From Myxococcus fulvus (GTDB taxonomy: Bacteria; Myxococcota; Myxococcia; Myxococcales; Myxococcaceae): a stretch of DNA of 64,000 nt. The position numbers and the translations under genes were made by a program. The stretch lies in the NCBI RefSeq assembly GCF_900111765.1, contig NZ_FOIB01000006.1:434001-498000 (forward strand). Reading direction: 5' to 3'. Below are positions 54,402 to 64,000 of the stretch, one piece after another. The first letter of the stretch is position 1. Each line of letters begins with the position of its first letter. The notes under the pieces are model-generated. The model ran no database searches. It saw only the letters and a program-made list of their open reading frames with translations, and was not told the DNA's origin.

Positions 54402-55364
54402 TCACCGGTCCAGCGCCGACAGGTCCGGGCAGGAGGCGCGCACGCCCTCCGTCGGATTGAAGATGTCCCAGGAGCGGGAGATGAACGTCACCTTCCCCTG
54501 GGCATCCCAGCACTCGGTGTACTTCGCGCCCGGGATGTCACCGCGCAGAATCTCCACGGCGGCCAGGCCCCGGCCGTCCGGCGCCCAGCGCGTGGTGAGC
54601 GCCATGTCCTCCTTCAACCCCCCGAGAACGAAGTCCGTCTGGACCAGCTCGAAGGTCATCTCCGCCACGCCGCCCTCGCCCTCCCGGTACACGTAGCGCG
54701 TGGGCAGGGGCAGGGTGGTGTCCGCCAGGATCCAGACCAGCTCCACCCGCGTGGGGAACGTCCTCGTCTGGTAGTGGATCTCCTCCCCGTCGATGAAGTC
54801 CACGCCCAGGTACCCCTCCTCGCGCGAGCGCTTCAGGTCCAGGATGAGACTGCCCGTCCCCCGGCGCACGCCTCCGGTCGCCTCGAAGTGGCCGGAGAGG
54901 AAGCTCCACCAGTCGCCCTCGCCCTCGCCGACGTCGCGAAGCTGGAGGTGGTAGTCGAAGCGTCCCCCCTCACGCGTCATCACGAAGCGCGTGTCGAACT
55001 TCATGTCGTTCTTGCCCAGGAAGGGCCCCCAGACCCGACGGTTGGGGCCGCGGGAGGTCGCGGGCTGGGTCCGGATGTTCTCGATGGCCTGCAGCATGTT
55101 GCCGACCGAGTCGTTGAAGTCGCGGCCCGTCTCGCTCGTGTCGCCGATGATGCCGGAGAGCTCTCCCAGTCGTCCCAGTTGCAGGGCCTGGACCTTGGAC
55201 GCCACGCGCAGGGCCCGGGCCTTCGCCTGCTCCTGCCCGAGCACCTTCGCCATCAGGTCCTCGCGCCGGGGGATGGCGTTCTGGAACTCCAGGTCGTCGT
55301 TGGAGAAGTCGCCGCCGCACGCGGCCAGGGCCAGACACAGGCAGATGGGCGTCAGGTATCGCAT
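54402..55364 (-). CDS. Lipoprotein of the ECF-caspase operon (copy 1)
   Basis: 320 residues. Lipoprotein signal [14 protein letters not shown], with AAGGAG seven bases before the ATG at 55364. The body after ~120 residues contains [75 protein letters not shown]. These align with the lipoprotein at 58309 (VWGPHTGPLDPHSWKL; SGSHTAGVDGDGERLSGYGSGQFLIDFEK; RWERTGAGRSDIKLSGGDLFGEATLSECWNEG). The overall domain is a beta-rich predicted outer-membrane or periplasmic module. Function unknown. It follows the caspase gene by 11 bases. Confidence 0.85.
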
Positions 55365-55375
55365 CGAACGCTCCT

Positions 55376-56977
55376 TCATGGCCGGTAGGTGAGGAGCGCG
55401 CCCAGCTCCCAGAAGCCCAGGGAGCGTTGCTCGTCCACGGTGTAGAGCAGGTAGTGGAGCCGGGCACGCCCCGTCACGTGCAGGCGTCGCAAGGGCTGCC
55501 AGCGCAACCCCGCGACGAGCCCCGGCGAGAACATCGCGAACTTCTGGTCCGGATACGCGGCCTCCTCGAAGTCGCGCCGCATCACGAGGTACGCCATGCG
55601 CGCGCCGACGAACGGGGTGACGCGTCCCTGGGGCCACTCGGACGCGAGCGTCGTGCCCAGGCTCGTCACCGAGTACCGGTACGCAGGCCCACTCAACGTG
55701 GGCAGGTCCAGCAGCGCCTGCTTGCGCCCCACCGCCACGTCCACGCCCCACACCCAGTCGCGTCGGAAGTAGTCGTGCAGCTGCGCCTCCGCGCCCAACA
55801 TCCCCACCGAGAGGAACAGCGACTGGCGCGTGGGCGCGTCGAAGTAGGACTGCACCGCGCCGGACAGGCCCAGCGTCCACCACGCGCCACCGTCCAGGCT
55901 CACACCCTTCACCGGGTCATCGGAGAAGGGCGCGTCCCTCAGGCGCGACTCCTCCAGCACCACGGGCTGTCCGCGCGACACCTGCACCTCGCCGATGCGC
56001 AGCCTGTCGGAGAGCCTTCGCTTCACGCGGTACGTGCCGGGCGCCAGGGCCACGCGGCGCTCCACGCCGTCCGTCTTGTCCAGCTCCGCCACCACCAGCC
56101 CAGCCGGGTCCACGAAGTAGTACATGCCGGCAGGCGCCACCTGCGGCACCACCAGCCCGTCGCCACCCGCGCGCAGGTCCGTGAGCACCAGGTCGCCGTT
56201 GCCCGCCAGGTCGTAGCTGAACGTGGGGTGCTGCGCGCCGCCGCTGCTCGCCGCGGTGTCCGCCACCGTGCGCGCGTACGCATGCGAGTACGCCTCGAAC
56301 AGCGTCACCCGTCCATCGCCGCTGCGGTCCGCGTCGCCCAACAGGCCGCTCGCCAGGTGGTGGGAGAAGTAGCTGCCGCCCAGCGCGTCCGACTCCTGCG
56401 AGTCCTCGTCCGCCGCGCTCGAGGTGAGGATGACCAGGCCCCGCGCGTCGCGTGACGCTCCGGACTCGATTTCGAAGGCCGGGGCCCGCCGCGCGCCCTT
56501 GGTGCGCGTCATCGCCCCGGAGCGGCACGAGTCGAGAATCGCGATGCGGATGTCCGCGGGCGCGTTCGACAGCCGGCGCTTCAAGTCGTCGAAGCCCAGG
56601 CGCGTGTTGCCCAGCCGCAGCGTGCCGTCCTTCGCGTGGCCGGAGTAGTAGACGAGCAGCGCCGTGCGCTCGCCCCTCTCCTGGGCCGCCTTCGCCCGCG
56701 CCTCCAGCGCCGTGAGCGCCGCGAGGAAGTCCTTCGACGTCTCGTTGAGCAGCAGCTTCGCGTCGCCGGGCGCCACGCCGCCCAGCCGCGCCAGCAGCTC
56801 GTGCATCTTGCGCGCGTCGTCGCGGGCGAAGCGCAGGGGCCGCGTCTCGTCGCCGCCCTCGTCGTTGCCGGCAATCAGCGCGAAGCGACGCAGGCTGTCC
56901 GCGTGCGCCGCCGAGGCCACGGTGAGCGCGAGCACCAGGCCCAGGGCCCGCCCGAATGGGAAGAGGGGTGGGCTCAT
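55376..56977 (-). CDS. Secreted caspase-fold protein fused to a predicted beta-barrel
   Basis: 533 residues. Signal peptide LGLVLALTVASAAHA (to ~26). Caspase/peptidase C14 domain ~27-255: RRFALIAGNDEGG, LLVYYSGHAKDG with catalytic His114, and IAILDSCRSGA with Cys151; the p20-like core is complete. DADRSGDGRVTLFE (214-227) resembles an EF-hand, as in calcium-dependent metacaspases. About 270-345 is PEGA-like beta structure. The C-terminal ~170 residues alternate hydrophobic and polar residues, with LGALLTYRP at the end, as in an outer-membrane barrel. Expected in periplasm or outer membrane. The start overlaps the anti-sigma stop by ATGA. Confidence 0.9.
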   Translation of the reverse strand: MSPPLFPFGRALGLVLALTVASAAHADSLRRFALIAGNDEGGDETRPLRFARDDARKMHELLARLGGVAPGDAKLLLNETSKDFLAALTALEARAKAAQERGERTALLVYYSGHAKDGTLRLGNTRLGFDDLKRRLSNAPADIRIAILDSCRSGAMTRTKGARRAPAFEIESGASRDARGLVILTSSAADEDSQESDALGGSYFSHHLASGLLGDADRSGDGRVTLFEAYSHAYARTVADTAASSGGAQHPTFSYDLAGNGDLVLTDLRAGGDGLVVPQVAPAGMYYFVDPAGLVVAELDKTDGVERRVALAPGTYRVKRRLSDRLRIGEVQVSRGQPVVLEESRLRDAPFSDDPVKGVSLDGGAWWTLGLSGAVQSYFDAPTRQSLFLSVGMLGAEAQLHDYFRRDWVWGVDVAVGRKQALLDLPTLSGPAYRYSVTSLGTTLASEWPQGRVTPFVGARMAYLVMRRDFEEAAYPDQKFAMFSPGLVAGLRWQPLRRLHVTGRARLHYLLYTVDEQRSLGFWELGALLTYRP

Positions 56978-57744
56978 GGCTTGAGCAGCACCCAGTGCGT
57001 CTGCGTGCCCTTCACATCCAGGGGCGCCATCCGCTCCACCTCGCCGCCCGCCGCCGAGAAGGCACGCCGCGTCGCCTCCACCAGCGACTCCACCGCGAAG
57101 GGCTCGTCACCCAGCACCAGCACCACGCGCTCGGCGCCCGAGCCGGTGAACTCCCAGCTCCCCTCCAGCCAGTGCACCTCCGCGCCGGGCTCCACCGCCA
57201 CGCTGGCGCCGGACTCCGGATGCAGCGCCGTCACCTCGCCGATGGCATCCACCGACACGGCGGCCATGTATCGGTGCGCGCCCGCCTTGTAGCCCAGCAT
57301 CACCCGCTCGCCGGGCTCCAGCGCCTCGGGCCTGTCGGGCCGTGCCTCGCGCTGCGGGCCCGAGCCGCCGCCGATGCGCAGCTCCGCCACGTCGCCGCCA
57401 CCCTTGCGCCGGTTCCACTCCGGGCCTTCTTCGAGGAGCGGCTTGGCCAGCACCACCACCAGCAGCGACGCGGCCAGGGCCACCGTCGCGGGCACCCAGC
57501 GCCGAGGAGGAGGGCGCGTGGCCTGCTGCCGCTGCTGGCGCTCCAGGGCGCGCTCGACACCCGCCTCGAAGCGCTCGAAGGGGAGCTCCGCCTCGAAGCT
57601 CGCCTGGTTCTCCTCGAGCCCCTTCAGCACGGCGCCGCAGGTGAGGCAGCCGGCCGCGTGGGCCCGGACGCGGTGGGCCTCGGGGGAGGCCAGCTCGCCG
57701 GCCCTCAGGCGTCGCAGTGTCCACTCCGACTCGTGCGCGCTCAT
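56974..57744 (-). CDS. Anti-sigma factor (zinc-binding, single membrane span)
   Basis: 256 residues. N-terminal ZAS/zf-HC2-like motif HAAGCLTC (about 29-36: H-x3-C-x2-C). A single membrane span (WVPATVALAASLLVVVLAKPLL, about 83-104) separates a short cytoplasmic sigma-binding region from a periplasmic domain of ~150 residues (LEPGERVMLGYKAGAHRYMAAVSVDAIGEVTALHPESGASVAVEPGAE). It should hold the ECF sigma factor inactive until a signal from outside is sensed. Overlaps the sigma gene and the caspase gene by ATGA. Confidence 0.88.
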   Translation of the reverse strand: MSAHESEWTLRRLRAGELASPEAHRVRAHAAGCLTCGAVLKGLEENQASFEAELPFERFEAGVERALERQQRQQATRPPPRRWVPATVALAASLLVVVLAKPLLEEGPEWNRRKGGGDVAELRIGGGSGPQREARPDRPEALEPGERVMLGYKAGAHRYMAAVSVDAIGEVTALHPESGASVAVEPGAEVHWLEGSWEFTGSGAERVVLVLGDEPFAVESLVEATRRAFSAAGGEVERMAPLDVKGTQTHWVLLKP

Positions 57745-58283
57745 CGAACCCTCAGCTCCTCTCCGCCCAGCTCGGCGAAGCGCTCCAGCCGCTTGCGGAT
57801 GGTGGGCACCGAGCGCCCCAGCATCGCGGCCACCTCTTCCAAGGTCATCCCGTCCACGTGGTAGTGGACCACCGCCGCCTGCGTCTCCTCATCCACCTTC
57901 GACAGCAGCCGGCGCACCAGGTCTCTCGTCTCCATCTCTCCGTCGCCACCGTGTCCCTCCGAGCGCGCGGCGGCGTCGCGCTCGAACCACTGCCTCCAGC
58001 CCGCGCGCTCCGAGCGCAGCTGGTTGAGGCAGTGGTGGGTGGCTATTTTCATCAACCACGTCAGCGGCGAGGCGTCCGCGCGGAAGTCCTCCGCGTGGGC
58101 CAGGGCGCGCGCGAAGACGTCATGCATCGCGTCCTCCGCCTTCGCCGCGTCCTTCAACAGATAGCGGCAGCGTCCCATCACGCTGCCGCCGTACCGCGTG
58201 TACAGCTCGCGCAGGAAGTCACGCCGGTCCGGGAGGGGACCGCCTTGGATGACCCGGAGGGCCGGCTGGCGCGGAGCTGTCAC
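57741..58283 (-). CDS. ECF RNA polymerase sigma factor
   Basis: 180 residues from a GTG; an ATG at 58346 would add 21 residues. Region 2 (LYTRYGGSVMGRCRYLLKDAAKAEDAMHDVFARALAHAEDFRADASPLTWLMKIATHHCLNQLRS) and region 4 (VDEETQAAVVHYHVDGMTLEEVAAMLGRSVPTIRKRLERF) with an HTH for -35 recognition; region 3 is absent, as in ECF sigma factors. Binds core RNA polymerase and directs it to its own regulon, usually including its own operon. It ends in an ATGA overlap with the anti-sigma factor. Confidence 0.95.
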   Translation of the reverse strand: MTAPRQPALRVIQGGPLPDRRDFLRELYTRYGGSVMGRCRYLLKDAAKAEDAMHDVFARALAHAEDFRADASPLTWLMKIATHHCLNQLRSERAGWRQWFERDAAARSEGHGGDGEMETRDLVRRLLSKVDEETQAAVVHYHVDGMTLEEVAAMLGRSVPTIRKRLERFAELGGEELRVR

Positions 58284-58308
58284 GCCCCCCAGACTAGCGC
58301 GAGCCGCC

Positions 58309-59295
58309 TCACAACGAGGAGTAGACCGCGGTGCTGAACCCGCCACAGGCGCTCACCGCCCCGTAGCCGATGACCGGGTTGTAGCTGGCGGCGTAATAGG
58401 TGCTCATGTGCCCCTCGTTCCAGCACTCGCTGAGGGTGGCCTCGCCGAAGAGGTCTCCGCCCGACAGCTTGATGTCCGAGCGGCCAGCCCCGGTGCGCTC
58501 CCAGCGGCTCTTGATGGCCATCCGCTCCAGCTTCGCGCGCGTCGGGTCCGCGTCGATGTCCTGCAGCGACACGAAGTCCAGCTCGCCGCCGGAGCCCGGG
58601 GCCTGCTTGAAGCGGTACTTCGCGCTCGTCACCAGGTCGCCCGTGTCGGTGTAGTCGAAGTCCGCCTCCACCGAGGCCGTCGCGTTCGGTCCGGTGCGCG
58701 AGTAGCGGACCTCCAGCGTCGCCAGGGCCTCCCCGTCGCCCTCGTTGCCGGGCAGCGTGCGCTGCTTCTCGAAGTCGATGAGGAACTGGCCGGAGCCGTA
58801 GCCCGACAGCCGCTCCCCATCACCGTCCACGCCCGCCGTGTGCGAGCCGGACAGCACCGTCTTGAAGCTCGAGTCCGGCTCCAGCCGGCCCTTGGCGTCC
58901 AGCACCCACGAGTACGTGTCGCCCCCGGTGTGCTGGACGGTCAGCTTCCAGGAGTGGGGGTCCAGGGGGCCGGTGTGCGGGCCCCACACGGCGACGTCCC
59001 CGTCGATGGAGGAGGGCGGGTGCTTGACGATTTCGGCCACCAACCCGAGCACGCTCAGCGTGGCGGCGTTGATGCTCACGGCGGCGGTGGCGGTGAGGAA
59101 GTAGTTCCCCGACAGCTGACCCTCGCCATAGTACGCGGACGTCTTGCCCTGCTCGTCACCCACGGGTCCCGGCGACGACACCTCCACCATCTGCTTGGAG
59201 GGCACTCCCTGGCGGAACGACTCCACGTCCTGCTTCTTGTCGGAGTCACAACCCACCAGCATCAGGGCGGCACACAGCAGGCTCTTGCGCAGCAT
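58309..59295 (-). CDS. Lipoprotein of the ECF-caspase operon (copy 2)
   Basis: 328 residues. Signal MLRKSLLCAALMLVGC. Beta-rich with VWGPHTGPLDPHSWKL and a C-terminal GDLFGEATLSECWNEGHMSTYYAASYN. Homologous along its length to the lipoprotein at 54402, which lies at the other end of the operon. The stop is 25 bases before the ECF sigma start, so it is probably the first gene of the same transcript. GGAAGG precedes the ATG. Function unknown. Confidence 0.85.
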   Translation of the reverse strand: MLRKSLLCAALMLVGCDSDKKQDVESFRQGVPSKQMVEVSSPGPVGDEQGKTSAYYGEGQLSGNYFLTATAAVSINAATLSVLGLVAEIVKHPPSSIDGDVAVWGPHTGPLDPHSWKLTVQHTGGDTYSWVLDAKGRLEPDSSFKTVLSGSHTAGVDGDGERLSGYGSGQFLIDFEKQRTLPGNEGDGEALATLEVRYSRTGPNATASVEADFDYTDTGDLVTSAKYRFKQAPGSGGELDFVSLQDIDADPTRAKLERMAIKSRWERTGAGRSDIKLSGGDLFGEATLSECWNEGHMSTYYAASYNPVIGYGAVSACGGFSTAVYSSL

Positions 59296-59478
59296 GGTCC
59301 TTCTTCCTTCCTGTTCGGATGGCCCCCGGCGGGCCGTGCGGCAGCGTGTTCGCTCCTATGGACACAGCCCCATCGGAAAACAGAAAAGGCGTCGGTCTGA
59401 CGTTGAAAGCCTCCGTGATTCCAGGGGGTTGGAGGCCGCCTGGCTGCTCCTCGGGCGACTTCGGGCGGCTTTCGGACG

Positions 59479-60366
59479 ATGGAAATGCAGCGTCCCTACC
59501 TTTCGCCCATGGAAAAACGACACCCCAACCATCCTGGCGAGATGGGCACCGACGCGGCGTTGGCCGAGCGCGAGCGCACCTCGGACGAGCTCAACGCGCG
59601 AGCGCGGGCCGTGGGGCTGCTGCGAGAGGCGGGGGTGCCCTTCGTGGTGGGCGGCGCGTATGCGTACGCCACCTATACCGGCATCTATCGGGACACGAAG
59701 GACCTGGACCTGTTCCCCCGCAAGGCGGACGCGGCGCGCGCGCTGGAGGTCCTGGAGAAGGACGGCTGGCGCACCGAGCGCACCGACGAGGTGTGGCTCT
59801 ACAAGGCCTTCAAGGGAGAGTACTTCGTCGACTTCATCTTCTCGTCCGGCAACGGCGTGGCGGTGGTGGACGACGAGTGGTTCGAGCACGCGCGGACCTC
59901 CACCATCTTCGGACACGAGTGCCTGGTCGCGCCCGCCGAGGAGATGATCTGGTCCAAGGCGTTCGTCGTGGAGCGCGAGCGCTTCGACGGCGCGGACGTC
60001 AACCACCTCATCCTCAAGGCGGGCAAGCAGATGGACTGGGAGCGGCTGATGCGCCGCTTCGACCGGTACTGGGAGGTGCTGCTCAGCCACCTCATGATGT
60101 TCCGCTTCGCCTATCCCTCCGAGACGCAGCTCATCCCTGACTGGGTGATGGCGGAGCTGATGCGGCGCACGCTGGACAGCATGCGGGACGGCGCCTGGGA
60201 GCAGAAGCTGTGTCGCGGCAACCTTGTCTCCAAGGTGAACTACCACGTGGACATCCACCACTGGGGGTTCGGGGACGGGCGGGCCTGGGACGAGAACGAA
60301 CGACGACAGGGGGGCGAGCGTGGCGAGGGATCCGAGCTCGAAGATTCGATTGGCGGCGGTCGGTGA
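59479..60366 (+). CDS. Nucleotidyltransferase-family protein
   Basis: 295 residues; an internal ATG at 59509 (MEKRHPNH) would remove ten residues and is a reasonable alternative. The core LREAGVPFVVGGAYAYATYTGIYRDTKDLDLFPRKADA is the nucleotidyltransferase fold signature: GG-A...D-x-D, the Asp pair binding Mg2+. Downstream KDGWRTERTDEVWLYKAFKGEYFVDFIF continues the fold. Related proteins include HEPN-free solitary MNT-like enzymes; the target is unknown. A plus-strand gene overlaps its 3' end by 47 bases. Confidence 0.85.
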   Translation: MEMQRPYLSPMEKRHPNHPGEMGTDAALAERERTSDELNARARAVGLLREAGVPFVVGGAYAYATYTGIYRDTKDLDLFPRKADAARALEVLEKDGWRTERTDEVWLYKAFKGEYFVDFIFSSGNGVAVVDDEWFEHARTSTIFGHECLVAPAEEMIWSKAFVVERERFDGADVNHLILKAGKQMDWERLMRRFDRYWEVLLSHLMMFRFAYPSETQLIPDWVMAELMRRTLDSMRDGAWEQKLCRGNLVSKVNYHVDIHHWGFGDGRAWDENERRQGGERGEGSELEDSIGGGR

Positions 60367-61054
60367 CCTTCACTGTCGTGAGGACCAGCACGGCCGGTTC
60401 CGGCACCTCGTCAAGCAGGTGAACGCGACGGCGGACCTGCTGGTGCTGTGCGGGGACCTCACGGACCGCGGCATGGTGGAGGAGGGCAAGGTGCTCGCCG
60501 AGGACCTCTCGGCGCTGCGCGTGCCGTGCGCGGCGGTGCTCGGCAACCACGACTACGAGCAGGGCCACGTGAAGGACATCTGCGCGGAGCTGGCCAAGGC
60601 CGGCGTGCACATCCTCGACGGGGACCACTACATCTTCGAGAAGGTGCTCGGCGTGGCCGGGGTGAAGGGCTTCGGCGGCGGCTATGGCAACGCGACGTTG
60701 CAGGCGTTCGGCGAGGGACAGACGAAGGCCTTCGTGCAGGAGGCGGTGACGGAGTCGCTCAAGCTGGAGGCGGCGCTGAGCCACCTGGACACGCCGCGCA
60801 AGGTCATCATCATGCACTACGCCCCGATTCCGGAGACGCTGGAGGGGGAGAACATCGAGATACGCCCCTTCCTCGGCACCAGCCGGCTGGCGATGCCCAT
60901 CGACCACTACGGCGCGGAGGCGGTCTTCCACGGGCACGCGCACCACGGCTCGCTGCAGGGCAAGACGAAGAGCGGCATCCCCGTCTTCAACGTCGCCATG
61001 CCCCTGCTCACGAAGCACACGCCGGACCAGCGCTACGTGCTGCTGGAGGTGTAG
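60320..61054 (+). CDS. Metallophosphoesterase
   Basis: 244 residues from a GTG (MARDPSSKIRLAAVGDLHC). Motifs in order: GDLHC, LCGDLTDRG, LGNHDYE, HYAP and the terminal HGHAHHGS, together binding two metal ions. It probably cleaves phosphodiester or phosphomonoester bonds in the cytosol. Overlaps the nucleotidyltransferase gene by 47 bases in another frame, so the two are translationally coupled, an arrangement that suggests a linked nucleotide function. Confidence 0.93.
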   Translation: MARDPSSKIRLAAVGDLHCREDQHGRFRHLVKQVNATADLLVLCGDLTDRGMVEEGKVLAEDLSALRVPCAAVLGNHDYEQGHVKDICAELAKAGVHILDGDHYIFEKVLGVAGVKGFGGGYGNATLQAFGEGQTKAFVQEAVTESLKLEAALSHLDTPRKVIIMHYAPIPETLEGENIEIRPFLGTSRLAMPIDHYGAEAVFHGHAHHGSLQGKTKSGIPVFNVAMPLLTKHTPDQRYVLLEV

Positions 61055-61063
61055 CGCTGGCGC

Positions 61064-61432
61064 TCAGGTGGTGACGACCATGCCGTCCTCCACCTTCACG
61101 GGCCAGGGCGTCAGGGAGGCGCCGTTGCACGGGCCTCCCACGCACTTGCCGTCGTCGGGGCGGAAGAGCGCGCCGTGCCAGCCGCAGACCAGGTGCTGCT
61201 TGTCCGGCGTCAGGTACTGGTCCAGCACGCGCGCCAGCGGCAGGCCCGCGTGAGGACACCGGTCCACGAAGCCGTGGACCTGACCGTCCTTGCGCACGAG
61301 GAAGCCGTGGAAGAAGGCCTCCTCGATCTGCAGGACGAAGTTGCGCGCGCCCGGGTCCGCGAGGGAGTCCACCGGGCACAGCGTGACGTCAGGAGGCGTC
61401 GTCCAGACGCGCTGCCGGGTCGGAAGGCTCAA
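61064..61432 (-). CDS. Rieske-type [2Fe-2S] ferredoxin-like protein
   Basis: 122 residues from a TTG overlapping the hmgA stop (TTGA). Rieske cluster motifs [10 protein letters not shown] and [18 protein letters not shown] (C-x-H...C-x-x-H). The upstream in-frame extension lies over hmgA and has atypical composition. Rieske ferredoxins pass electrons to oxygenases. Since HmgA needs no ferredoxin, the role here is uncertain; it may serve an unlinked oxygenase or an additional step in aromatic degradation. Confidence 0.85.
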
Positions 61433-62766
61433 GGCAGACGGGCCTTCTCGAAGCCCGCCCAGCAGTCGTCGTAGTCGAGCTGCATGGTGGACGACTCCAT
61501 GGCGAAGCGCGTGGGGCGGATGACCCAGCGCGACTCGAACATGAACGCCATCGTGTCCTGAATCTTGTGCGGCTTGAGCTCCGCCTTGATGGCCTGCTCG
61601 TAGCTGGCGCGGTCCGGACCGTGGCCGCTCATGCAGTTGTGCAGCGACGCGCCGCCCGGGGCGAAGCCGCCGGCCTTGGCGTCGTACACGCCCTGCACCA
61701 GCCCCATGAACTCGCTCATCACGTTGCGGTGGAACCAGGGCGGCCGGAACGTGTCCTCGGCCACCATCCACCGCGGCGGGAAGATGACGAAGTCGCAGTT
61801 GGCCGTGCCGGGGGACTCGCTGGGCGACGTCAGCACCGTGAAGATGGACGGGTCCGGGTGGTCGTAGCTCACCGTGCCGATGGTGTTGAAGCGCGCCAGG
61901 TCATACTTGTACGGCGCCAGGTTGCCGTGCCACGCCACCACGTCGAGCGGCGAGTGGTTGAACTGCGACGCCCACAGCCGGCCCTGGTACTTCTGAACCA
62001 CCAGCGTCGGACGGTCCACGTCCTCGAAGGCGGCCACCGGCGTGAGGAAGTCGCGCGCGTTGGCCAGGCCGTTCGAGCCGATGGGGCCCAAATCCGGCAG
62101 GCGGAAGAGCGCGCCGTGGTTCTCGCAGATGTAGCCCGCGACGGGACCGTCCGGCAGCTCCGCGCGGAAGCGCACGCCGCGCGGCACGACGGCGACTTCA
62201 CCCGGGCGCAGCTCCAGCACGCCCAGCTCCGTCACCAGCGTCAAACGCCCCGCCTGCGGGACGAGGAGCAGCTCGCCGTCCGCGCTGTAGAACACCTTGT
62301 CGGTCATGGACCGGTTGGCGCGGTACAGGTGGATGGAGATGCCACAGCTCGTGGCCGTGTCGCCGTTGCCGGCGTAGGTGATGAGGCCCTCCACGAAGTC
62401 CGTGGGCTCCGTGGGCATGGGCTGGGGGTTCCAGCGCATGCGGTTGGGTGAGGGCGGCACCTCGTCGAAGGGACCGCCACGCACCAGCCCCTGAGGGTGG
62501 GGCTGATACGCGGGATGGTTGGCGCTCGGACGCAGGCGGTACAGCCAGGAGCGCTTGTTCTCCCGGCGCGCCACCGTGAAGGCCGTGCCGGACAGCTGCT
62601 CCGCGTACAGGCCGAAGGGGGCCTTCTGCGGAGAGTTGCGCCCCACGGGCAGCGCGCCGGAGACGGCCTCCGTCGCCACTTCGTTGCCGAATCCGGAGAG
62701 GTAGTCGCCGGGCGCCTTTCGGAGCCCGCTCTTCGGAGGTACCGCGGTTCGAGTCTCGAGGGTCAC
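61429..62766 (-). CDS. hmgA: Homogentisate 1,2-dioxygenase
   Basis: 445 residues. [27 protein letters not shown] at the N-terminus and the iron-binding cupin region ([63 protein letters not shown]) identify the enzyme. It opens homogentisate to maleylacetoacetate in tyrosine and phenylalanine degradation. Follows hppD by 30 bases in an operon; the next steps (maleylacetoacetate isomerase, fumarylacetoacetase) are outside the window. Confidence 0.97.
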
Positions 62767-62796
62767 CGTGAAGTTCCTCCGCAGTCGGGCCGGGAG

Positions 62797-63873
62797 CTAC
62801 TTCCGGGACTTCTCCACCTTGATGACGCCGCGGCGGATCTGGTCCAGCTCGATGGACTCGAACAGGGCCTGGAAGTTGCCGTTGCCGAAGCCCTCGTTGC
62901 CCTTGCGCTGGATGATCTCGAAGAAGATGGGGCCGAAGAGGTTGTTGGTGAAGATCTGCAGCAGGAGGCCCTCCTGCTCGTTGCCGTCGATGAGGATGCG
63001 GTTCTTGCGCATCCGCTCCAGGTCCTCACCGTGGTTGGGCACGCGCTTGTCGACCAGGTCGTAGTAGGCCTCCAGCGTGTCCTGCAGGTCCACGCCCCGC
63101 GCGCGCAGCCGCTCGACGGTTCCGTAGATGTCCTGGGTGGACAGGGCCAGGTGCTGGATGCCCTCGCCGTTGTACTCGCGCAGGAACTCTTCGATCTGCG
63201 ACTTCTCGTCCTGGCTCTCGTTGAGCGGAATCCGGATGGCGCGGTCCGGGGCGATCATCGCCTGGCTGAACAGGCCCGTGGCCTGGCCCTTGATGTCGAA
63301 GTACTTCTGCTCGGTGAAGCCGAAGATGCGGTTGTAGAAGGTCGACCAGGTGCGCATCTGGCCCCGGCGCACGTTGTGCGTCAGGTGGTCCAGCGACTCC
63401 AGGCCCACGCTGTTCTTGGCCTCGGACTCGGCGGCGCCGGGAATCTGCACCCAGGAGTCATAGATGGTGCCGGCCGCGCCGTGACGGTCGATGAGATACA
63501 GCAGGCTGCCACCGATGCCCTGCAGGACATAGAAGCCCTCGCCCAGGGAGCTGGCGGCGGGGTCCGCGGCGACGGCGCCGCGCTCCAGCGCCAGCTCGTA
63601 CGCGGCGCGGGCGTTGGCCACGCGGAAGGCCATGGCGTTGGCGGACGGGCCGTGGGCGGCGCGGAAGTCGGCGGCCTGACCCGCGGGCTCCTGGTTGATG
63701 AGCAGGTTGATGTCGCCCTGCTTGTAGCGGACCAGCGCCTTGGTCGGGTGCCTGGCGTAGGCCGTGAAGCCCAGCTTCTCCACCAGCGCCACCATCGCCT
63801 CGGGGGCGGGGCTCGTGAACTCCACGAACTCGAAGCCATTCAGCCCAATCGGGTTTTCCGCCGTGGTCGCCAT
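62797..63873 (-). CDS. hppD: 4-hydroxyphenylpyruvate dioxygenase
   Basis: 358 residues from MATTAENPIGLNGFEFVEF, with GGAGG eight bases before the ATG. Iron ligands are present in LDHLTHNV, IQHLALSTQDI and the C-terminal FFEIIQRKGN. Converts 4-hydroxyphenylpyruvate to homogentisate, the step before hmgA. Earlier in-frame starts (63894) are weaker. The 127 bases beyond it to the right edge contain no further gene that I can support. Confidence 0.97.
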   Translation of the reverse strand: MATTAENPIGLNGFEFVEFTSPAPEAMVALVEKLGFTAYARHPTKALVRYKQGDINLLINQEPAGQAADFRAAHGPSANAMAFRVANARAAYELALERGAVAADPAASSLGEGFYVLQGIGGSLLYLIDRHGAAGTIYDSWVQIPGAAESEAKNSVGLESLDHLTHNVRRGQMRTWSTFYNRIFGFTEQKYFDIKGQATGLFSQAMIAPDRAIRIPLNESQDEKSQIEEFLREYNGEGIQHLALSTQDIYGTVERLRARGVDLQDTLEAYYDLVDKRVPNHGEDLERMRKNRILIDGNEQEGLLLQIFTNNLFGPIFFEIIQRKGNEGFGNGNFQALFESIELDQIRRGVIKVEKSRK

Positions 63874-64000
63874 GACACTGCCTCCGGACATCATCTACGA
63901 GTGTGACTGAAACGTAGGGAGGGGCGGCGGAGGAGGAAAGCACAAAGAACTGCCAGAGAATGTCAGCGGCCCGCACCATCTCCCGAGGGAAGGCCCGCGC

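Follow-up and report, generated by a model that had tools for sequence, protein, structure and literature searches.

A Lys-Gly motif shared by an outer-membrane caspase and its neighbouring anti-sigma factor suggests a proteolytic switch in Myxococcus fulvus

Myxococcus fulvus (NCBI RefSeq assembly GCF_900111765.1, contig NZ_FOIB01000006.1) carries a five-gene operon that encodes an extracytoplasmic function (ECF) sigma factor, an anti-sigma factor, an exported caspase with an outer-membrane beta-barrel and two lipoproteins. We find that the same short motif, a Lys followed by a Gly, is conserved in the disordered linkers of both the caspase and the anti-sigma factor. The reading that we favour, and consider reasonably probable, is that the operon works as an autoregulated ECF sigma/anti-sigma switch, in which the co-encoded caspase would most likely be the activating site-1 protease, cutting after a Lys or Arg that precedes Gly. 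We put this cleavage-motif mechanism forward with moderate confidence, as a new and directly testable proposal.

All coordinates are positions in the window, the whole 64,000-nt stretch that was analysed (contig positions 434,001 to 498,000). The operon spans 54402-59295 on the minus strand and its order, taken from the open reading frames (ORFs), is first lipoprotein (LP1), ECF sigma, anti-sigma, caspase with barrel and second lipoprotein (LP2). An initial annotation of this DNA had described five tightly packed minus-strand genes, and all of its positions, gaps and overlaps are reproduced here. An arrangement of this kind exceeds chance. The genes and the three predicted cleavage sites are as follows, where pLDDT is the predicted local distance difference test score of a structure model.

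58309..59295, minus strand: LP1, a lipoprotein with lipobox VGC; a conserved family and an LP2 homologue (ORF)
57741..58283, minus strand: ECF sigma factor (SIG), with a GTG start and a 25-bp gap after LP1 (Pfam Sigma70_r2/r4_2, TIGR02937)
56974..57744, minus strand: anti-sigma factor (ASIG), with an ATGA overlap with the sigma gene (structure model; ChrR/RsiW/DdvA profile matches; zf-HC2 and DUF4384 in family members)
55376..56977, minus strand: caspase (CASP), Peptidase C14, with an ATGA overlap with the anti-sigma gene (Pfam; AlphaFold; Foldseek/VIA-align)
54402..55364, minus strand: LP2, a lipoprotein with lipobox AAC, its ATG after AAGGAG and an 11-bp gap after the caspase; an LP1 homologue (ORF)
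57400..57411, minus strand: ASIG R112-x-K114-G115, some 10 residues past the transmembrane helix and the predicted site of caspase cleavage (K114 and G115 invariant in 42 diverse sequences; pLDDT below 50 at 106-115)
56495..56506, minus strand: CASP R158-x-K160-G161, where the p20/p10 linker is predicted to be autoprocessed (K160-G161 in 120/120 and R158 in 112/120 homologues; pLDDT below 50 at 159-176)
55904..55909, minus strand: CASP [K/R]357-G358 (here K357) in the pre-barrel linker, predicted release site ([KR]G in 97%; pLDDT below 50 at 356-363)

The motif stands out most clearly in the anti-sigma factor. Among 117 of these proteins R112 is found in 101, K114 in 115 and G115 in 114, and in a non-redundant set of 49 no other residue of the protein is as conserved as this Lys and Gly. 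They are also the only invariant columns in an alignment of 42 diverse members with a mean column identity of 29%. The sole segment of the anti-sigma model with a pLDDT below 50 (mean 90) is 106-115, which lies between the transmembrane helix and the periplasmic domain. Besides its two motif-bearing linkers, the caspase model falls below 50 in the signal-peptide region and at 404-406. A cleavage site would be expected to look like this, invariant in a disordered linker, and the three places where the motif occurs are the p20/p10 linker, the tether to the barrel and the juxtamembrane site-1 position. Other anti-sigma factors from the same genomes served as controls: a KG within 30 residues past the transmembrane helix is found in 1/19 of these and RxKG in 0/19, compared with 106/111 and 91/111 in the family. 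Three of 20 control loci turned out to lie beside divergent caspases, and these carry RG. No conserved [KR]G is found in LP1 or LP2. Among the roles suggested for the caspase in the initial annotation, cleavage of the anti-sigma factor is the one that the sequence evidence favours, as the same motif is present in both proteins.

The caspase carries a signal peptide and matches Peptidase_C14 (Pfam, 1.3e-12) at residues 30-255. An AlphaFold model built with 18 homologues (mean pLDDT 83) assigns residues 29-260 to the caspase domain, 270-345 to a beta-sandwich and 366-531 to eight C-terminal strands. The caspase fold aligns with metacaspase-4 (6w8r; VIA-align Z 21.7, root-mean-square deviation 2.8, 209 residues aligned), and the barrel strands match NspA (template modelling score 0.76 by target length), OmpA and OmpX in Foldseek. 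The features of this protein are:

56636..56638, minus strand: catalytic His114 (120/120)
56525..56533, minus strand: D149-S-C151, the S1-pocket Asp and catalytic Cys (D149 and C151 in 120/120)
56294..56329, minus strand: EF-hand-like loop D217-E228, putatively calcium-binding, DRSGDGRVTLFE (acidic positions nearly invariant)
55385..55882, minus strand: eight-strand outer-membrane beta-barrel, residues 366-531 (AlphaFold strands; NspA/OmpA/OmpX matches)

The His-Cys dyad of Peptidase C14 is present, and His114, Cys151 and Asp149 occur in all 120 homologues. The last of these is the acidic S1-pocket residue, two before the Cys, that is a trait of metacaspases and orthocaspases; we therefore predict from the sequence that the enzyme is of this type, with a preference for a basic P1 residue. 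Metacaspases cut after Lys or Arg owing to their acidic pocket, and C14 members outside the true caspases cut after these two residues (PMC5756287). Both catalytic residues, the EF-hand-like acidic loop and the C-terminal barrel had been proposed in the initial annotation, and each is borne out, the loop being nearly invariant. This loop is a tentative candidate for the 280-loop of metacaspases. With an even number of strands, the N-terminal caspase would lie on the periplasmic side, as is the case with OmpA-type barrels.

The anti-sigma factor has a ZAS-like N-terminus, one transmembrane helix (84-105) and a periplasmic DUF4384-like domain, as judged from the structure model and profiles. The zf-HC2 match of this protein alone is weak (0.017); 19/42 family members match zf-HC2 in Pfam. 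The family profile matches ChrR (4e-4), has weaker matches to RsiW and DdvA, and shows the features of a ZAS-type membrane anti-sigma factor. Profiles place a DUF4384 match at the C-terminus of family members, and a Foldseek search with the periplasmic domain gave no match below 0.001. The sigma factor (Sigma70_r2 6e-15 and r4_2 9e-10 in Pfam) has the sigma2 and sigma4 domains and no others. Both BLASTP (2e-16) and HHalign (99.9%) show LP1 and LP2 to be homologues, which agrees with the earlier description of the flanking lipoproteins.

The pairing of motifs recurs in two further caspase architectures. In a divergent family, with barrel-like C-termini, the linker reads (S/R)RG and the adjacent anti-sigma factor xARG or xSRG, with Lys in both partners at three loci. 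A late [KR]G is conserved at the pre-barrel linker position of these proteins. Locus L315 is a mismatch by its linker, yet has Lys-Gly in tether and anti-sigma factor alike, and at L303 the Gly is lost in both partners (SRAP and ARSV). A further set of divergent caspases (L288-L296, L298) has a CDSYFF-like active-site context and an SRG/ARG linker; no adjacent anti-sigma gene was found at these loci. The caspases of the third family are themselves lipoproteins, in which [E/D/V]KG follows the lipidated Cys in the tether and KG stands in the anti-sigma linker. This motif pair is present in 31/31 distinct loci with variable flanks, while the p20/p10 linker is without K-G. The third family has two copies in this genome. 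Loci L319 and L320 (G000:C6:411 kb and C2:1203 kb) encode lipid-anchored caspases in sigma/anti-sigma/caspase/lipoprotein operons, with K-G in tether and anti-sigma factor.

One paralogue group has lost the caspase domain but kept the tether motif; here a protein consisting of a signal peptide, [KR]G and a barrel-like domain is encoded beside an anti-sigma factor that has also kept the motif. For example, L220 3372-5403 (G000:C1:112 kb) has a sigma factor, an anti-sigma factor with TRSKG and then a 204-residue protein with a signal peptide, LRKG and a barrel-like domain.

Several points weigh against the cleavage proposal. The anti-sigma factors of L220 and L217-L219 keep the K-G site when the next gene encodes a barrel only, and L057 pairs RSKG with RVRG. 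Plain RG occurs past the transmembrane helix in about 6/17 control anti-sigma factors by chance. Type I metacaspases have been reported without p20/p10 autoprocessing (PMC5756287), and the periplasmic location of the caspase domain is a prediction from barrel topology. On a maximum-likelihood caspase tree Lys/Arg needs one change in the caspase and three in the anti-sigma factor, and the agreement between the partners amounts to about one coordinated event. The P3 Arg does not co-vary once phylogeny is counted. We had considered Lys/Arg and P3 Arg co-variation as statistical proof and rejected it, as the association seems strong in the uncorrected tables (Fisher p 0.002 for P3) but the tree leaves one and three independent contrasts, which are not significant. 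Because the tree leaves about one event, the argument draws on the conservation of the motif within disordered linkers and its recurrence in three architectures, not on co-variation.

The analysis shows the gene order, the domains, the conservation and position of the motif and the promoter element described below. The following scheme goes beyond this by inference in what it says of the cleavages, of how the caspase is released, of the intramembrane step, of the trigger and of what the lipoproteins do. The caspase would be exported and anchored in the outer membrane by its eight-strand barrel, so that its catalytic domain faces the periplasm. The trigger may be sensed through calcium, by the barrel or by the lipoproteins; calcium is a plausible stimulus in view of the conserved EF-hand-like loop. 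A self-cut at K160|G161 would mature the enzyme and another at K357|G358 would release it from the outer membrane, and this would bridge the gap from outer to inner membrane. The freed caspase could then reach the inner membrane and cut the anti-sigma juxtamembrane linker at K114|G115, predicted to lie at the periplasmic position of an RseA-type site-1 cut. A site-2 protease, for which the genome offers several Peptidase_M50 candidates (best 2e-72), and cytoplasmic proteases would then free the sigma factor, and this would transcribe the operon from the promoter at 59387-59359, yielding more caspase and lipoproteins.

A broader idea can be entertained as a serious, still tentative possibility: the caspases of Myxococcota and several other phyla may be releasable messengers from the outer to the inner membrane, held by a barrel or a lipid, freeing themselves by a cut at a basic residue that precedes Gly and going on to cut a matching anti-sigma site, with several parallel copies per genome.

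The alternative that survives best makes the caspase an output. Here the sigma factor would drive it as an effector of envelope quality control, lysis or predation, a DegS- or trypsin-like site-1 protease would cut the anti-sigma factor, and K-G would be where that second protease cuts, or else a motif for binding. The caspase does sit in the operon, downstream of the promoter element, unrelated site-1 proteases commonly cut bacterial anti-sigma factors, and the barrel-only loci keep the anti-sigma K-G with no caspase adjacent. However, this leaves unexplained the invariance of the motif within the caspase itself and the agreement of the partners in Lys or Arg in three architectures, and we judge it unlikely. 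Less probable again is that K-G is a structural or docking element, by which caspase and anti-sigma factor interact without cleavage, the anti-sigma factor or its DUF4384 domain acting as inhibitor or scaffold. That the motif is common to both proteins would fit, and DUF4384 recurs in papers on bacterial caspase homologues, but against docking stands the place of the motif in unstructured segments, at each of the three points where a cut for maturation, release or site-1 cleavage would be expected, and in the lipid tether of the third family.

Programmed cell death, with the caspase as a killing protease induced by stress or in development, seems very improbable. It has been suggested for Myxococcus metacaspases (PMC3501461), but the signal peptide and barrel place this caspase outside the cytoplasm, the operon has no killing partner and it is lost or broken in a Myxococcus clade. 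The initial annotation's mention of such a role goes unsupported, with the evidence speaking neither for nor against it. That the caspase matures the flanking lipoproteins, another of the early suggestions, can hardly be credited: the two are homologous and lie on either side of it in the same operon, but neither conserves [KR]G and most paralogous trio loci are without them.

Returning to the proposed switch, the initial annotation had proposed transcript mapping to look for an ECF promoter before position 59295, and a conserved element is indeed found there:

59359..59387, minus strand: promoter-like element TTTTCTGTTTTCCGATGGGGCTGTGTCCA (TTTY-N15-GC[TC]GTGTCCA), with the same element and spacing before LP1 in three other families

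The pattern has one exact match in the 10.8 Mb genome, at this operon. Across 41 genomes 22/25 matches fall at this operon, and a reversed control pattern gave 2 matches. The simplest reading is that of an autoregulated ECF promoter, nearly dedicated to the operon. Another candidate, GGAAT-N15-CGTC at about 59421-59397, is unconserved among orthologues and TTTY-N15-GCYGTGTCCA was preferred. A wider regulon was also rejected, as this genome has no second site and the 3 extra sites elsewhere are at about the control level (2).

Full-length caspase orthologues (81-97% identity) are present in 20 of the 25 genomes of the genus, this one included; of the other five, one has a split caspase (G005) and four have none. 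All intact genus members that were examined have the complete set of five genes in the same order, and L051-L053, which belong to other families, have it too; L054, also of another family, has one lipoprotein instead of two. In G005 (L050 6537-8942) an IS66-like transposon lies inside the caspase gene, and the sigma, anti-sigma and lipoprotein genes look intact. The operon has decayed in the Myxococcus clade G006, G018 and G023 (L098, L097 and L099). Here LP1 is truncated and joined by a deletion to a sigma gene without its first ~108 residues, and the caspase and LP2 are remnants; the promoter and the anti-sigma reading frame are kept. In the G023 anti-sigma factor, an orphan without its caspase, the K-G site reads K-S-G. 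The conservation of order that the initial annotation had proposed to check holds in the genus and in loci of other families; the loss of order or of an active caspase, which it had taken to count against its reading, is seen in part, in one clade (the G005 insertion and the G006, G018 and G023 decay). The BNCN01 records labelled 'Comamonas sp. KCTC 72670' (L115, L166) carry a Myxococcus-type operon with 81% identity to the window caspase, and the name is probably wrong.

The association extends well beyond these close relatives. We collected 80 further caspase loci from genome contigs by the caspase alone. Where at least 2.6 kb of upstream sequence was available, an anti-sigma gene was found in 66/69 and a sigma gene in 58/69. 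These loci come from Myxococcota, Gemmatimonadota, Fibrobacterota, Latescibacterota, Aminicenantes, Acidobacteriota and others. Lipoproteins of the LP1/LP2 type are absent from most paralogous trio loci.

An AmpG-family muropeptide permease gene (54327-52702, minus strand; TIGR00901 1.8e-110) starts 74 bp past LP2 on the same strand and could be co-transcribed with the operon; every locus of the genus has it at this position, in one clade as a homologue with 36%. On the other side, divergent plus-strand genes for a nucleotidyltransferase-like protein (59479-60366) and a metallophosphoesterase (60320-61054), overlapping by 47 bp, stay beside the operon across the genus. Beyond these, at 61429-63894 on the minus strand, lie genes that look by eye like those for homogentisate 1,2-dioxygenase and 4-hydroxyphenylpyruvate dioxygenase, putatively of tyrosine breakdown.

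Several known systems resemble parts of the proposed switch. In RseA/DegS/RseP-type signalling a single-pass anti-sigma factor is subject to regulated intramembrane proteolysis. The ECF sigma factor, the single-pass anti-sigma factor, the predicted periplasmic juxtamembrane site-1 position and the genomic site-2 proteases are alike in our case, whereas the predicted site-1 protease is an outer-membrane-anchored caspase with its own release site. FecA/FecR/FecI-type cell-surface signalling via TonB-dependent transducers (PMC11637429) likewise has an outer-membrane barrel protein, an inner-membrane anti-sigma factor and an ECF sigma factor in one locus; the difference is that no TonB-dependent receptor is involved here, and an eight-strand barrel is fused to a protease that could itself carry the signal. 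ECF54 sigma factors, with CHAT or subtilase gene neighbours, have no anti-sigma factor and proteolytic control has been proposed for them (PMC8999054). They share with this operon the protease genes adjoining an ECF sigma gene and the proposed mode of control, but here an anti-sigma gene is present, overlaps the sigma and caspase genes and carries the motif.

The type III-E Craspase offers another parallel, as TPR-CHAT cuts Csx30, which is bound to RpoE (PMC9729208). Both cases involve a caspase-like protease and the partner of an RpoE-type sigma factor, with cleavage only predicted in ours. However, Craspase is a cytoplasmic, RNA-activated CHAT protease with a CRISPR effector, while ours is an exported C14 caspase with a transmembrane anti-sigma factor. 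TPR-CHAT/gRAMP features were not found: the protein is a C14 caspase with a signal peptide and barrel, and neither the operon nor the tested neighbours contain a CRISPR gene.

The coupling of caspases with sigma factors is not new. Metacaspase operons with sigma-70 genes were reported in 2012 for Myxococcus, Anaeromyxobacter, Haliangium and Sorangium, and four of the five M. xanthus metacaspases adjoin a sigma factor (Asplund-Samuelsson 2012, PMC3501461). That is the same gene association as here, but the main text of that account names no anti-sigma factor and no barrel, and we saw no shared cleavage motif or mechanism in it. In the open-licence literature we found no earlier claim of a periplasmic caspase that cuts an anti-sigma factor, and no earlier account of a recurring Lys-Gly in caspase linkers and anti-sigma factors.

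To our knowledge, the substrates of bacterial caspase homologues are largely unknown, and cell death is the context in which these proteins are usually discussed. Here, across several phyla, the genes themselves suggest which protein is cut and at exactly which bond, and that protein is encoded beside the protease. If true, this would give bacterial caspases a job in signalling and would add a new class of site-1 protease. It would also describe a relay from the outer to the inner membrane in which the protease itself is the traveller.

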